Source of the DNA: a bacterium HR28
Lineage (GTDB): Bacteria > Chloroflexota > Chloroflexia > Thermomicrobiales > Thermomicrobiaceae
DNA length: 64,000 nt
Direction of reading: 5' to 3'
NCBI GenBank assembly: GCA_002898255.1
Contig: BEIE01000001.1
Location: 1 to 64,000, forward strand
Under the pieces are notes generated by a model, which saw nothing but the letters and a program-made list of their open reading frames with translations, did no database searches and was not told where the DNA came from. Within the stretch, counting starts at the first letter, position 1. Each line of letters opens with the position of its first letter. Made by a program: the position numbers and the translations under genes. This document shows positions 5,861 through 18,277 of the stretch, one piece after another.

Positions 5861-6213
5861 TGGTGGAGATGGGGGGAGTCGAACCCCCGTCCAGAGCGTT
5901 CAGCCGAGGATCTGCTACAGGCTTAGCCGGTGTTCTCATGTCGCTGCCGGGCTCCCACCGACAGGATCCCGGTCAGCCGAGCCGGATCAGACTTGACCTC
6001 GCCCGCACCGGCGCTTGGGCGAGGGGCACCCCGGCCTTGCGACGCCCGCTCCGAACCCGCCGGGGAGGGGTTCGGACAGACGTGGCTGCGTTAATTACGC
6101 AGCCAGAGCGAGTTCGCGCTCGCCAGTTACTTTGCTGCCCCTTTTTACGAGTTCGTGGGCGACCTCGGCCTGCAATCCTCGCACCTACGGCCCTGTCGAA
6201 TCCGGTCATCCCC
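5861..6213 (-). ncRNA. ssrA: Transfer-messenger RNA (tmRNA)
   Basis: 5' GGGGATGACCGGATTCGACAGG..., 3' GGACGGGGGTTCGACTCCCCCCATCTCCACCA; 7-bp acceptor pairing GGGGATG/CATCTCC. Tag reading frame GGC GAG CGC GAA CTC GCT CTG GCT GCG TAA. Confidence 0.95.
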
Positions 6214-12308: not shown

Positions 12309-14039
12309 TCAGCGCGCTGGGTGCGATCCATCGATCCAGACACGCTCCAATCCGAGGATACCCAAAGGGGTCATTGGAAAGTCGCGAACCCGCGGCGCGA
12401 CGAGCAAGTATTCCACGTCGAACGTCAGTGGGAGAACGACCGCCTCATCGAGGATAGCTTGTTGGGCGGAGAGAAATGCCTCCCGCCGCTCGCCTGGATC
12501 CAGAGTGTGCCGAGCCTGGTCGAGCAAGCGCTGGACACGCGGGTTCTCGTACGCGATCGGGCGCGCAGGGCTGTCCGTTGCGAACAAGGCATCAAGTATC
12601 GCCTCGGGATCGGGATAGTCCGCGACCCAGGAAAAGACGAAGATTGGCAGCCGCCTCGCATCGAGATCGGCCAGATAGTCTGGCCAGTCCAACTGGAGGA
12701 CTTCGACGTCCGCGCCGAGTTCCTGCTCCCAGACGCGGGCGAGCATAACCGCTAGGTCGCTCCCAGCACTCACGACCTCAAGCTGGAGCTGACGCCCGGC
12801 CAAGAGTTCTCGCGCAGCCTCCGGATCGGTGGGCAACACCGAAGCTGCCCACGGGCTTCCTGGCATCTCTTCTGGCACGATCCCCTCGGCCAGCCGCACC
12901 TTCCCTTGGAGTGTCACCCGGGCCACCTTCTCGCGGGGAAACGCTTGAATCAATGCTCGCCGCACGGCTGGATCGTCGAGCGGCGGCACAGCCGGGTTAA
13001 AGAACACATAGGTTCCCGCGAAGAGCGGCTGCACAACCAAGTGGTCGCGATAAGGCGACTCGGGCGCGCTCAACCGATCCACAGCCCAGGGCGGAACGTT
13101 GGCGACATCGAGCTGACCGCGCTCGTACTGATTCAGCGGCGAGAGCGCCGCTGAGCCGATCGCGATGTGCACCTCACGGAGATATGGTGGCTGTGGTCGA
13201 TAATCAAGATGAGGTCCGAGCACGAGCTCCTCGGTGTCCCAACGCAATAACCGGAATGGGCCGCTCCCAATGGGATGTCGCCACCACTCCGGCCCTTGCT
13301 CAACATTGGCACGCAGCACCACGCTCGCGACCGGCAAGGCCAAGCGGAGCAGAAAGGTCGCGCTCGGTGCCTCCAAGCGCAGCCGTAGTGTCCGCTCATC
13401 AAGGAGCTCGACTCCCGGAATATCACTGCGCCGGCCGAGCAGACGATCTTCGGCACCAACAAGATCACGCAGTACACCCCAGGCTGGTAGTCCCCGCCCG
13501 TCGCCGCCGTTCAGTGCTGGATCGCACGCCCGTTCGAGCGAGTACTTGACATCAGCGGCAGTGATCGGTGTTCCGTCGTGAAACGTAATATCGGGACGCA
13601 ACCGTACCGTGTAGGTACGCCCATCCGGAGATACCTCAATGCGCTCAGCCAGTTCCGGGACAGGACGGAGCGAGGGATCGAAGCGTACTAACCCACGAAA
13701 CAGCTGCTGGACCACAAAGGCGGACTCAACATCGCGGACGAGCGCCGGATCGAGCGTGAGTGGCCCATCTGGTGAACCGGCCAAGGTGAGTTCTTGATCG
13801 CCTACCAGAGGTGGCGGCTGAGGCGCCGGTGGTGCCTCGAGGATCTCTCCCGGCAGCACCGGCGTGACCGATGGAGTCGTGAGGATCACCTGGGGGAATC
13901 CATCAGGTGAGGAAACTGCCTCGGGCGGCGAATTCCCTGGCGTCGCGACTGGGCTGGACGGAATCAGGAACCGACAGCTCGCCAGAACGAGCAGTAGGAG
14001 AATAAACAGCGTCAGGCGACTACGCTCGTGGGCCTTCAT
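12309..14039 (-). CDS. ABC transporter substrate-binding lipoprotein (peptide/nickel family 5)
   Basis: Lipobox-like LLLLVLASC; LTLDPALVRDVESAFVVQQLFRGLVRFDPSLRPVPELAERIEVSPDGRTYTVRLRPDITFHDGTPITAADVKYSLERA. Confidence 0.85.
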   Translation of the reverse strand: MKAHERSRLTLFILLLLVLASCRFLIPSSPVATPGNSPPEAVSSPDGFPQVILTTPSVTPVLPGEILEAPPAPQPPPLVGDQELTLAGSPDGPLTLDPALVRDVESAFVVQQLFRGLVRFDPSLRPVPELAERIEVSPDGRTYTVRLRPDITFHDGTPITAADVKYSLERACDPALNGGDGRGLPAWGVLRDLVGAEDRLLGRRSDIPGVELLDERTLRLRLEAPSATFLLRLALPVASVVLRANVEQGPEWWRHPIGSGPFRLLRWDTEELVLGPHLDYRPQPPYLREVHIAIGSAALSPLNQYERGQLDVANVPPWAVDRLSAPESPYRDHLVVQPLFAGTYVFFNPAVPPLDDPAVRRALIQAFPREKVARVTLQGKVRLAEGIVPEEMPGSPWAASVLPTDPEAARELLAGRQLQLEVVSAGSDLAVMLARVWEQELGADVEVLQLDWPDYLADLDARRLPIFVFSWVADYPDPEAILDALFATDSPARPIAYENPRVQRLLDQARHTLDPGERREAFLSAQQAILDEAVVLPLTFDVEYLLVAPRVRDFPMTPLGILGLERVWIDGSHPAR

Positions 14040-14403
14040 CGCTTTTCTTCCGAGACGCACGCTCCGTCAGTACTGCCAAAATCCGCGCGACGACTTCGTC
14101 CACAGTCAGTAGACCGGTATCGAGAACGAGATCAGCGTGCGCCCGTGCCTCGGCCAACCGTTCTTGCTCAAGCCGATAGAGCCACTCGGGCCAGTCGTGA
14201 CCGCGTCGTGCCCGCACCGTCTCTAAGCTCGCATCGAGGTAGACCAGGAGATCTGGTTCTGGTCGGCGCCAGAGATCACGCACGATGGAATGTTCCTGCC
14301 CAACGACGACGGCATCGATTCCGCGTCGAGCGAGCTCCGCAGCGATGGTCGATTTTCCGGCCCCGCAAGGGCCGACGAGGACGACACGCATCGACGACTC
14401 CAT
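14020..14403 (-). CDS. Small P-loop nucleotide kinase-like protein
   Basis: MESSMRVVLVGPCGAGKSTIAAELARRGIDAVVVGQEHSIVRDLWRRPEPDLLVYLDA. Confidence 0.7.
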   Translation of the reverse strand: MESSMRVVLVGPCGAGKSTIAAELARRGIDAVVVGQEHSIVRDLWRRPEPDLLVYLDASLETVRARRGHDWPEWLYRLEQERLAEARAHADLVLDTGLLTVDEVVARILAVLTERASRKKSDEGPRA

Positions 14404-14449: not shown

Positions 14450-15163
14450 TCACTCGGGCAGCGGAAAGCAGAGTGCGAGCCGCCGGATTGGCTGCACCGC
14501 TCCACCGCCGTGGAGTTTGAGTGCTACGACCGTCATATCGTCCTGTGGATTCCCGCGGTCGGCCGCCAACGCTGCCGAGAGGAGACCGTCAGCGACTTCT
14601 TGCGCCGTCCGCTCAGGCCACGCCTCCTGCTGGGCATACGCGACAACATCGAACGCTTGTTGCCAACGTCGACCAGCGTGCGCAACACCGTCGCTGACCA
14701 GGATGGCAGTCAACCCGGGCTCCAACGGCCACTCGGTGACACTCGGACGAGTGTGCCGATAGACGCCAATGCGCCCGCCCGTGGAAGCGACCACCTCGAT
14801 ACCACTGTCGCGGACAAGTACGAGTGGGGCTTCACTATTCCGCGTGACGACGAGCGTGCGGCTGGCAAGATCGACCGAGACAATGTCCAATTCGGCCGAA
14901 ACACGTCCACCGCGCAGTGTGTACAAGAAGTCGTGCGCCGCCCGTGCCGCTGCTCCGTCACGCACGCCTTCATTCAGCAGGCCGATGACCCGCCCAGCGA
15001 TCTGTAGGCTCAACAGTTTGGCTGCACTCCCGGAACCCTGGGCATCCACCAGGACGACCGAAATGCCACCACCCGGCCGTTCGACGAGCTCCACAGTGTC
15101 GCCGCTCTCGCGACTACCCGCCCGGTGTGTCTTCGCAATGGCGAGTTCGATAGTAAGTGTCAC
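14450..15163 (-). CDS. SpoIIE/PP2C-type serine phosphatase
   Basis: GGGISVVLVDAQGSGSAAKLLSLQIAG...LTAILVSDGVAHAGR...GNPQDDMTVVALKL. Confidence 0.75.
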   Translation of the reverse strand: MTLTIELAIAKTHRAGSRESGDTVELVERPGGGISVVLVDAQGSGSAAKLLSLQIAGRVIGLLNEGVRDGAAARAAHDFLYTLRGGRVSAELDIVSVDLASRTLVVTRNSEAPLVLVRDSGIEVVASTGGRIGVYRHTRPSVTEWPLEPGLTAILVSDGVAHAGRRWQQAFDVVAYAQQEAWPERTAQEVADGLLSAALAADRGNPQDDMTVVALKLHGGGAVQPIRRLALCFPLPE

Positions 15164-16194
15164 GACGATCGAAGAACTGATGTCCGACCTTCGTAGTTTC
15201 GGGCGTAGTACGCCGCAAATGCGTCATCGCGCCGGGCCCGCCACCAGTCCTGTCGTTCGCAATACCATGCGACCGTTTTGGCCAAGCCCTCAGCGAACGA
15301 AATACGGGGGCGCCAGCCAAGTGCCGCGAGACGACTCCAGTCGACGGCATACCGCCGGTCATGGCCCGGACGATCAGCCACATGGACGATTGCCGCAGGG
15401 TCCGCCCCGAGAAGCTCGACAAGTGCGCGCGCAACCGCGAGATTTGGCCGATGCTCGGAAGCTCCGATATTGTAGACCTGCCCCGGTTCACCGTGCAGGA
15501 GCACCACCCAAATGGCGCGGCAGTGATCATCGACATAGAGCCAGTCGCGCTCTTGCAGACCGTCACCGTAAATGGGAATCGGTTGCCCGCTCAGAAGATT
15601 CGTGATGGCCAGCGGAATGAATTTCTCAGGATGCTGGTATGGCCCGTACGTATTGCAACCGCGGGTGACGAGGACTGGGAGCCCGTAGCTAGCCCAATAG
15701 GCAAAGGCAAAGTGTTCGGCAGCCGTCTTGCTCGCAGCATAGGGATTCCGAGGACGCAGCGGATCATCTTCTTTCGCCGCGCCGATCAGCACCTCCCCAT
15801 AGACCTCGTCTGTACTCACATGGAGGAATCGAGAGACACGAGCACGCGTCGCGTGTTCAAGGAGCACCATCGTTCCCCAGACATTCGTCTGGACAAAGGC
15901 AGCAGGCTCGAGGAGCGACCGGTCAACGTGGGTCTCGGCCGCGAAGTTCACGACCGCATCACAACCGGTCATCGCTTCGGCAACCGCATCCGGGTCGGCA
16001 ATATCGCCTTGGAGAAAACGAACCCGTGGATCGTCGAGCACTCCCTCGAGATTGAGGAGGCTTCCAGCATACGTGAGCTTGTCGAGGATCACAATCTCGG
16101 GAATCCCACAGGCCAAGGCCAGTCGGACAAAGTGACTTCCGATAAATCCGGCGCCACCGGTCACCAGTACACGACGAAACGGCGCTGTGGACAC
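15160..16194 (-). CDS. rfbB: dTDP-glucose 4,6-dehydratase
   Basis: VLVTGGAGFIGSHFVRLAL...FAAETHVDRSLLEP...STDEVYGE...YAASKTAAEHFAFAYWASYGLPVLVTRGCNTYGPYQHPEKFIPL. Confidence 0.93.
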   Translation of the reverse strand: MSTAPFRRVLVTGGAGFIGSHFVRLALACGIPEIVILDKLTYAGSLLNLEGVLDDPRVRFLQGDIADPDAVAEAMTGCDAVVNFAAETHVDRSLLEPAAFVQTNVWGTMVLLEHATRARVSRFLHVSTDEVYGEVLIGAAKEDDPLRPRNPYAASKTAAEHFAFAYWASYGLPVLVTRGCNTYGPYQHPEKFIPLAITNLLSGQPIPIYGDGLQERDWLYVDDHCRAIWVVLLHGEPGQVYNIGASEHRPNLAVARALVELLGADPAAIVHVADRPGHDRRYAVDWSRLAALGWRPRISFAEGLAKTVAWYCERQDWWRARRDDAFAAYYARNYEGRTSVLRSS

Positions 16195-16558
16195 CGACGC
16201 CCTCCCTATTCAGTGTGAGCCTAGCATCTGCACGGCATGATCAGCAACCTGCTGGTAACTTCCATGACGCACTGGAGAGAGTTGTCCGAAAACGAGCTGT
16301 TCTGACCGCTGGAGGACATCAGAACCGACAACAGCAAGGTGACCTGGCTAGTATCGATTCCCCACGCCTTCGTCTTCCATGAGAGGTCTTTGCCACCACA
16401 GCCCGGTAGATGCCCCCAAGCATGGCAGCAACCCGTCGTGGCAAGCGGAGCACCCGTCACCCTTGTGCGCTGCTCAGAGCGCTACCTGAAGGAAGCGCCC
16501 CGCGTTCAAGTTGCGGCAGCACGGCGGCGAGAAGGACAAAGGTTTGCAAACCCGGGTA

Positions 16559-16587
16559 TTGACAGGCAGGGCCGTTCGTACTAGAGT
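16559..16587 (+). promoter_or_regulatory. Promoter TTGACA-17-TAGAGT
   Basis: Consensus -35 at 16559-16564, 17-nt spacer, -10 at 16582-16587. Confidence 0.65.
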
Positions 16588-16593
16588 GGTACT

Positions 16594-16802
16594 AGCCAGT
16601 AGTACTCGCCGCAGGGACGGCCGGCCGAAACCAGAGCGGGACCAGAGTACTACCCGGTGCGGGTCGGTTTGCTCAAGGGAAGGGGGAATTCCCGTGAAGT
16701 GGAAGAGCTGGAAGATTCGCTGACACGTCCCACAGGGACGGAAGGCCACTGTTCATAAACACCCTGGCCGCTGAGAGTCACCGGCGGCGCGGGGTGTTTT
16801 TC
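16594..16802 (+). ncRNA. Candidate autonomous structured RNA (sRNA or riboswitch-like), family unknown
   Basis: Own promoter and terminator, no coding ORF of known type. 9-bp stem GTAGTACTC (16599-16607)/GAGTACTAC (16645-16653); hairpins CCCGgtgCGGG, GGGAATTCCC and CGTCCC-ACA-GGGACG (16726-16740). Confidence 0.55.
16759..16801 (+). terminator. Intrinsic terminator of the candidate RNA
   Basis: ACACCCtGGCCGC...GGCGGCGCGGGGTGT followed by TTTTT. Confidence 0.75.
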
Positions 16803-16972
16803 TGCTACACCATGCGTTCTATGAAGCTAAGACTTCAGTACCTGCAAACCCTGTGCATCCAGTCACGAGAAGCACAGACCTTCGTCGCCACCAAAGCCTG
16901 ACCTGATGATCCTGGAAATTTAAAGGAGATCGTGGTAAACACAGAACTGGGCTGATTGAGTCGAGAGAACGC

Positions 16973-18277
16973 ATGACGAGTCAGCGAACAGGCACCGATC
17001 TCAAGCGGTTTTTGCCGTTTCTTCTCTTTCTCACGGCAGCGAATGTTGCCGCGTTCTTCTTTGCAATGTTTCATTTTCCAGTAGAGAATGATCTTCGTTC
17101 ACTTTTTACTGCCGCTATCCTCCTGGCTCTCGTTGTTCTAGCTGAACAGCTGGCTATTGATCTTCCGGTACCCCACGCTAGGATTACAGTTTCCGTTTCA
17201 TCAGCAATTAACTTCGCTGCTGTGCTGACTCTTGGACCACCTCTTGGAATTGCAGTCGCTGTTCTTGGTACCCTTATTGACGACCTTATCGAGCGCAGGG
17301 AACCTATCAAGATCCTTGTCAATATGAATAATTTCGCCTTGCAAGGCATTATCGCTAGCCCAATTTACTTCTCTATGAGTGAAGGTGGATCGCCTCTCGC
17401 CAGTCCGCGTAACTTCTTCGCTATGCTTGTGGCCGCTGTTGCTTCCTCTGGTGCCCAAACTATTCTCTTAGCACTTTTGCTCTCTGTCGCCACCGGCACC
17501 AGTGCGTGGTACCTCTGGCGCTCAATGGCGCGCGGCCTTCTCGTCGAGTTCCTCGCCTTGCCCGCACTCGGTAGCCTCTTCCCCATTCTCGCTCGTGAGC
17601 ACCCACTCGCGCTTGTGCTTATGGTGATCCCGCTGCTTGGTCCCTACCTCGCCTTCCGCGACTACCGACAGCTCCACCACGAGACGCAGAGCACCTTCGA
17701 GCTCCTTGCTGACCTCTTGGATCGCCGCGACCCCTACACCGCGGCACACTCCCAACGCGTCGCACAGCTCACAGCACTCATCCTTGACGAGTTCCCAGAA
17801 CTCACCGTCGAAGAACGGGAAGCCATCATCTCGGCCGCTCGCATCCACGATCTCGGTAAAGTCGCAACCAGCGACCTCATCCTCCGTAAGCCAGGACGTC
17901 TCTCCGACGACGAGTTCGCGGTGATCCAGCGCCATCCGGTCGACGGGAGCGAGATCCTGCGCCATTTGAGTCCCTACCGGCATATCGTCGAGATCGTGCG
18001 GCACCACCACGAGCGCTGGGACGGTCGTGGCTATCCGGACGGGCTCACCGGCGAGGAGATTCCTTTCGGTTCGCGCGTCATCGCAGTGGCAGATACGTAT
18101 GACGCCATGACCACCGATCGCCCGTACCGGCGTGCGCTCACGCACGAAGAGGCGATGGCTGAGCTCCGTCGCGGCGCCGGGACACAGTTCGACCCCGCTG
18201 TTGTCGCCGCCTTCGAACGAGCCGTCGCACGCGCGAGCGCAGCCGTGCGTGAGAAGGCAGCAGCTTCTCTCTCGTAA
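16973..18277 (+). CDS. Membrane-anchored HD-GYP domain protein
   Basis: N-terminal TM region, then DRRDPYTAAHSQRVAQLT...AARIHDLGKVATSDLILRKPGRLSDDEFAVIQRHPVDGSEILRHL...IVRHHHERWDGRGYPDGLTGEEIPFGSRVIAVADTYDAMTTDRPYR. Confidence 0.9.
   Translation: MTSQRTGTDLKRFLPFLLFLTAANVAAFFFAMFHFPVENDLRSLFTAAILLALVVLAEQLAIDLPVPHARITVSVSSAINFAAVLTLGPPLGIAVAVLGTLIDDLIERREPIKILVNMNNFALQGIIASPIYFSMSEGGSPLASPRNFFAMLVAAVASSGAQTILLALLLSVATGTSAWYLWRSMARGLLVEFLALPALGSLFPILAREHPLALVLMVIPLLGPYLAFRDYRQLHHETQSTFELLADLLDRRDPYTAAHSQRVAQLTALILDEFPELTVEEREAIISAARIHDLGKVATSDLILRKPGRLSDDEFAVIQRHPVDGSEILRHLSPYRHIVEIVRHHHERWDGRGYPDGLTGEEIPFGSRVIAVADTYDAMTTDRPYRRALTHEEAMAELRRGAGTQFDPAVVAAFERAVARASAAVREKAAASLS

Follow-up and report, generated by a model that had tools for sequence, protein, structure and literature searches.

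A nine-codon, tryptophan- and lysine-rich peptide gene next to an HD-GYP phosphodiesterase gene points to an apparently undescribed family of ultra-short genes in Chloroflexota

RESULTS

A nine-codon ORF in the intergenic region

The window (the whole 64,000-nt stretch of DNA that was analyzed) has an intergenic region at 16195-16972, between a dTDP-glucose 4,6-dehydratase gene and a gene for an HD-GYP cyclic di-GMP (c-di-GMP) phosphodiesterase (Table 1). The best-conserved element of this region is an open reading frame (ORF) of nine codons, GTG AAG TGG AAG AGC TGG AAG ATT CGC TGA, or MKWKSWKIR. It had been overlooked in an earlier, sequence-only reading, which proposed a structured RNA with its own promoter and terminator. 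The stretch conserved across the family is (G/A)TGAAGTGGAAG-NNN-TGGAAG with GGGAAGGGGG upstream, and it is not a stem. In relatives the Shine-Dalgarno (SD) sequence is stronger (AAGGAGG). The locus is very probably a translated peptide gene, judging from these features and the comparisons below.

Table 1. Features at the locus (window coordinates)
Feature	Position	Strand	Evidence or remark
dTDP-glucose 4,6-dehydratase gene, divergent; context outside the unit	15160..16194	-	TIGR01181, 413 bits
Putative sigma-70-type promoter of the mini-gene, TTGACA-17-TAGAGT	16559..16587	+	Match at 16559; recurs in related loci
GTACT/AGTAC words	16578..16653		At 16578, 16589, 16601 and 16646; the two arms of the "long-range stem" are among them
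Predicted mini-mRNA, ~207 nt	16594..16801	+	Start inferred from the -10; end is the terminator
SD region GGGAAGGGGG	16677..16686	+	7-10 nt 5' of the GTG
Ultra-short peptide gene, 9 codons	16694..16723	+	Synonymous changes and varying start and stop codons, 30 genomes
Hairpin CGTCCC-ACA-GGGACG	16726..16740	+	From the sequence-only reading; not conserved
Intrinsic terminator	16757..16801	+	Hairpin of -29 kcal/mol plus TTTTT
HD-GYP c-di-GMP phosphodiesterase gene, N-terminal membrane domain	16973..18277	+	Pfam HD_5, 5e-37

Single and tandem mini-ORFs in relatives

DNA similarity to the 291-bp region extends through the genus, and through the family for the core only. The homologues always lie between the dTDP-glucose 4,6-dehydratase and HD-GYP genes, and every one contains a free-standing ORF that stops after nine codons. 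These encode MKWKSWKIR (the window and G003), MKWKSWKLR (G001 and G006), MKWKNWKIR (G002), MKWKSWKWG (G009), MKWKGWKWT (G008), and MKWKGWKWQ (G013 and G016). The penultimate residue is Ile or Leu in the window's genus versus Trp in other families. Another genus has tandem copies of the ORF, three in G017 and four in G014.

We then located the orthologues of the HD-GYP gene and read the DNA upstream for mini-ORFs. Such ORFs, of 5 to 18 codons and one to nine in tandem, occur in 30 genomes from four Chloroflexota families, and in 27 of the 30 they immediately precede the HD-GYP orthologue. In the other three (G010, G039, and G136), the array is at the end of one contig and the HD-GYP gene at the end of another, which prevents a reading of their adjacency. 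MKWKNFRWK occurs with MKNFRWK in G007 and G012, and likewise in G015; two copies of MKWKTHKWR in G020 differ as ACA CAT versus ACC CAC; G033 has MKWKNWTWR, MKWTNWTWR, and others; and G155 has four copies of MKWKGVKWL plus one variant. There are also MKWKNMKWT (G038), MKWKNLKWG (two copies, G039), MKWSSFGLKWE (four, G136), MKWSSFGLKWG (G137), MISWK (five, G154), MSSVKWG (four, G150), MLGVKWS (five, G149), and, in family f5, MKWTDITWN (G024). G131, which belongs to a family outside the order (f14), has nine copies of MKW[AS]xxALKWD. Peptides of 17 to 18 residues, MTWD...TWK, are found in five copies in G037, seven in G147, and two in G146. Four-codon MTWD-stop ORFs with an SD (at 526 and 617 in L169 and at 514 on the reverse strand in L170) at the 5' end of arrays with 17-codon members may be truncated or minimal copies.

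A motif search of 158 genomes of the class recovered the arrays with few chance matches, and the reversed control gave 4 matches. A pattern search of 400 genomes of the phylum yielded, outside the class, only chance-like matches. When 84,980 species were scanned with the nine-codon pattern, free-standing matches with an SD appeared only in Thermomicrobiaceae/Sphaerobacteraceae records; most other matches were discarded because they were inside long ORFs or had no SD (L053, L067, L073, and L075 were assigned to neither group). We found no account of these arrays in the open-access literature searched.

Selection on the encoded peptide

Copies within arrays differ with a pS of 0.456 and a pN of 0.134 (pN/pS of 0.29), although these pairwise counts are not independent. 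Synonymous and nonsynonymous differences number 11 and 0 in G136 and 7 and 0 in G155, and wherever an array has more than two differences, pS exceeds pN. Identity is 0.76 to 0.98 in the ORFs versus mostly 0.2 to 0.4 in the 25-nt flanks on each side. Starts (ATG/GTG) and stops (TAG/TGA/TAA) are free to vary. Because the copies differ mostly synonymously while the flanking DNA is randomized, the translated peptide appears to be under selection. A detector for at least three similar SD-led mini-ORFs found none in 1.7 Mb of background. By these sequence comparisons, the unit is evidently protein coding, selected at the amino acid level, and linked to HD-GYP despite differing neighborhoods.

Transcription signals

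The proposal that the unit has its own promoter and terminator is supported by relatives. At 20 of the 26 loci compared, TTGACA-17-TAnnnT, with a spacer of exactly 17 nt, lies 134 to 229 nt 5' of the first mini-ORF, and G137 has TTGACT-17-TAGCAT at -99. Convincing terminators are present 3' of the array in the window and in G001, G002, G009, G012, G020, G024, G131, and G137. In most loci of family f3, we did not find a clear terminator between the array and the HD-GYP gene.

At most loci the HD-GYP gene apparently has its own extended -10 promoter, 3' of the array. Of 24 loci, 16 have GnTAnAnT 5' of the HD-GYP start versus 1.9 expected by shuffling, a result that is supportive only, since the motif was defined after inspection. 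In the window this promoter is weak, with GGTAAACA only and no exact match to GnTAnAnT. An apparent separate promoter 3' of the array argues against the idea that the unit is a riboswitch for the HD-GYP gene.

Seven GTACT/AGTAC words, versus 1.0 expected, occur in the intergenic region, including one GTACT further downstream at 16837. Such words are enriched family-wide near the promoters of both the array and the HD-GYP gene, although not in most f3 loci, and they are absent from several. They are possibly an operator set, to which some regulator would bind; those around the promoter could perhaps also form a hairpin in the 5' untranslated region (UTR).

RNA structure

All the elements of the sequence-only reading exist: TTGACA-17-TAGAGT, an inverted repeat (GTAGTACTC at 16599-16607 and GAGTACTAC at 16645-16653), the CGTCCC/GGGACG hairpin, a CAGGGACGG repeat (16612 and 16733), and the strong terminator. 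Each alone is weak evidence, not far above chance. The promoter pattern had 1 match versus 0.6 expected, and the fold of the 212-nt RNA gave a z of -1.41, and 16 of 200 shuffled sequences folded equally well or better; folds of both strands gave a z of about -1.3 to -1.4. Among the homologues, neither the 6-bp hairpin nor the CAGGGACGG repeat is retained, even across the genus. The arms of the 9-bp long-range stem are mostly invariant; by eye they show one or two compensatory changes, and in L006 they are partly compensated. They also have an alternative explanation, since both are GTACT sites.

A search with the Rfam covariance models, including those for 6S RNA and the c-di-GMP riboswitches, gave no match at gathering score to the array region in the window and none to 20 related loci. 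At a permissive threshold, the region had only chance-level matches, and those to mycobacterial small RNAs (sRNAs) were dismissed as such. With Rfam empty, the fold within chance, and the terminator as the sole conserved hairpin, the suggestion of a structured RNA, 6S-like or a riboswitch, finds no backing. The only gathering-score match in the window was a tmRNA gene (5861-6213, minus strand; RF00023, 163 bits). The region had no match in the plasmid collection.

The HD-GYP partner and the neighborhood

The HD and GYP motifs of the HD_5 domain, HHERWDGRGYPDG, are present in the partner sequence. In Foldseek searches with a model of moderate confidence (pLDDT of 69.5), the C terminus matched 4r8z and the N terminus matched RibU (3p5n). 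The N-terminal membrane domain (window 16973-17700) folds like the S components of ECF transporters (RibU and ThiT), and on this model it is possibly a sensor of a small ligand. An N-terminal membrane domain joined to HD-GYP is also the layout of HD-GYP proteins with MASE-type sensors; what sets the present domain apart is its likeness to an ECF S component (RibU). A significant match to Pfam MASE9 was obtained for the G137 partner only; in that protein, a long stretch masked as N's (L265, 1400-7303, minus strand) hides the HD-GYP part. More distant HD-GYP genes of the class have no array.

The ancestral context of the pair includes aroC, a GNAT gene, and genes for an SBP_bac_5 oligopeptide-binding lipoprotein, a SpoIIE phosphatase, and TrmD. 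In the window, the SBP_bac_5 lipoprotein-like gene is at 12312-14060 (minus strand), and other families, too, keep it in synteny with the array; its product is a candidate for peptide capture. Elsewhere the surroundings differ. The pair is near PAS-GGDEF-EAL genes in G037, G146, G147, and G154; read from the sequence, it adjoins polA in G131 and G137; and it is in still other surroundings in G033 and G024. The PAS-GGDEF-EAL genes of these nonancestral neighborhoods are at 6383-8194 in L211, 7229-9217 in L214, 7141-9390 in L218, and 1838-3655 in L233. Because the partner is constant while the neighbors change, the array and the HD-GYP gene form a pair. No exporter or processing enzyme is adjacent in all loci, and the contexts examined have no immunity or export gene in common.

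DISCUSSION

That genes of 7 to 10 codons exist and function has been shown by the leaderless communication peptides (LCPs) (PMC10518010) and by mccA (PMC6495379). LCPs of the SIP type, which act with RopB, are peptides of ~8 to 10 residues made straight from an ultra-small ORF without a leader or cleavage site; their genes adjoin that of the presumed receptor and are missed by annotation (PMC10518010). The mini-genes described here likewise are ultra-small ORFs (9 codons, 5 to 18 in relatives) without a secretion or cleavage segment, and each adjoins a presumed receptor gene. However, LCPs are hydrophobic (MWLILLFL), act on the cytosolic RRNPPA regulator RopB, and are reported in Firmicutes, with tandem arrays unmentioned (PMC10518010), whereas the present peptides are rich in Trp, Lys, and Arg, are not highly hydrophobic, and are encoded in arrays of one to nine beside a membrane HD-GYP protein in Chloroflexota. 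No RopB/Rgg-type receptor gene is among the neighbors (HD-GYP, TrmD, SpoIIE phosphatase, and RmlB).

The seven-codon mccA, which encodes the precursor of microcin C, is conserved in length, and its transcript outnumbers those of the downstream genes because of termination after mccA (PMC6495379). Our mini-genes share the ultra-short, conserved length and the terminator; unlike mccA, they occur in tandem, vary in the C-terminal residue, and are not in an antibiotic cluster. No MccB-type ThiF adenylyltransferase gene is among the neighbors within ~8 kb. Since the partner proteins of both systems are lacking, we do not file the family under LCP or mccA; by analogy, it may at most work like the LCP system. 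PqqA, mycofactocin, and tnaC were also considered but set aside, as their partner genes or motifs appear to be lacking.

We propose that transcription from the TTGACA promoter would yield a mini-mRNA of ~200 nt, which would stop at the unit's own terminator and code for a single leaderless nonapeptide, MKWKSWKIR. In evolution, the mini-ORF family appears to be coupled to a single HD-GYP phosphodiesterase, which is membrane bound and has an ECF-S-like sensor domain. A high output of peptide would result from the strength of the promoter and the SDs together with the number of copies. The peptide would then work in trans: either directly or once exported and reimported, it would serve as a ligand or signal that modulates the linked HD-GYP protein and hence the level of c-di-GMP. 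It is speculative that the W-x4-W spacing of the nine-residue forms could give a small Trp-paired hairpin. Taken whole, the proposal of an autonomous gene whose leaderless, Trp/Lys-rich product acts in trans on the linked HD-GYP protein is, in our estimate, close to evenly balanced between right and wrong. More tentative, and rather likelier to be wrong than right, is the specific claim that the Trp-containing peptide from arrays of one to nine copies is the ligand of an S-component-like HD-GYP receptor and sets c-di-GMP directly.

Attenuator leader peptides, such as those of trp and tnaC, are encoded by a short Trp-containing ORF with an SD, followed by a terminator and the regulated gene. 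The mini-gene has this same succession of elements, and the main rival to our proposal is a cis-acting leader, a ribosome-mediated attenuator in which translation of, or stalling on, the Trp-rich mini-ORFs controls the terminator or access to HD-GYP. The mini-ORFs are always 5' of the HD-GYP gene on the same strand, their Trp codons are conserved, and in the window and several relatives a terminator follows the last mini-ORF by 20 to 55 nt; a GGCCA/TGGCC pairing, seen by eye in the window and L002, could compete with it. However, several features are unlike those of attenuator leaders: as many as nine ORFs stand in tandem, mostly at a distance of hundreds of nucleotides from any terminator; the HD-GYP gene has an apparent promoter of its own 3' of most arrays; and a conserved alternative stem appears to be lacking. 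In addition, residues other than Trp are under purifying selection, and HD-GYP is unrelated to Trp metabolism. The case for cis attenuation is strongest where a terminator or separate promoter is not evident. At f3 loci, most of which have no clear terminator between the array and HD-GYP, cis control may operate, although the same lack tells against terminator control there. Overall we consider a cis leader unlikely.

A precursor of a modified peptide (a RiPP or microcin C-like) or a cationic antimicrobial as the product of the mini-ORFs, with a purely regulatory link to HD-GYP, is still less probable. Precursor copies in tandem, the basic, Trp-rich composition, the g19 peptides with conserved ends and a variable middle (MTWD...ATWK), and the mccA precedent would fit, as would the radical-SAM gene that lies at a distance of two genes in G037. 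That gene, however, is present in just one examined context; ThiF/MccB, YcaO, LanB, and radical-SAM genes were not found near the window locus, and a shared immunity or export gene is lacking. It is very improbable that being translated is itself the function of the mini-ORFs, for instance to soak up tRNA-Trp or ribosomes. Their extreme shortness, strong SDs, and Trp codons would suit such a sink, but a sink needs neither selection on the other residues nor a length conserved within families. A noncoding structured sRNA, 6S-like RNA, or riboswitch is barely credible: there are a promoter, a terminator, and some hairpins, but these hairpins vary among relatives, neither Rfam nor the fold favors it, and the conserved segment obeys codon logic.

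Read as a peptide gene, the locus illustrates that a putative small RNA can turn out to be a peptide array. The results point to an apparently undescribed family of ultra-short bacterial peptide genes. Genes of 5 to 11 codons are below annotation cutoffs, and very few are established (mccA and the SIP-type LCPs). Here a conserved family with codon-level selection is found in 30 genomes of four families, with up to nine repeats before a single enzyme gene. Many sensor domains in c-di-GMP signaling have no known ligand, and the family provides a candidate peptide input that can be tested. Peptides this small can be synthesized and applied to cells or to purified protein. If the more tentative ligand claim is true, an ultra-short ribosomal peptide would directly set c-di-GMP levels in Chloroflexota, and the family would represent an undescribed class of peptide signaling.
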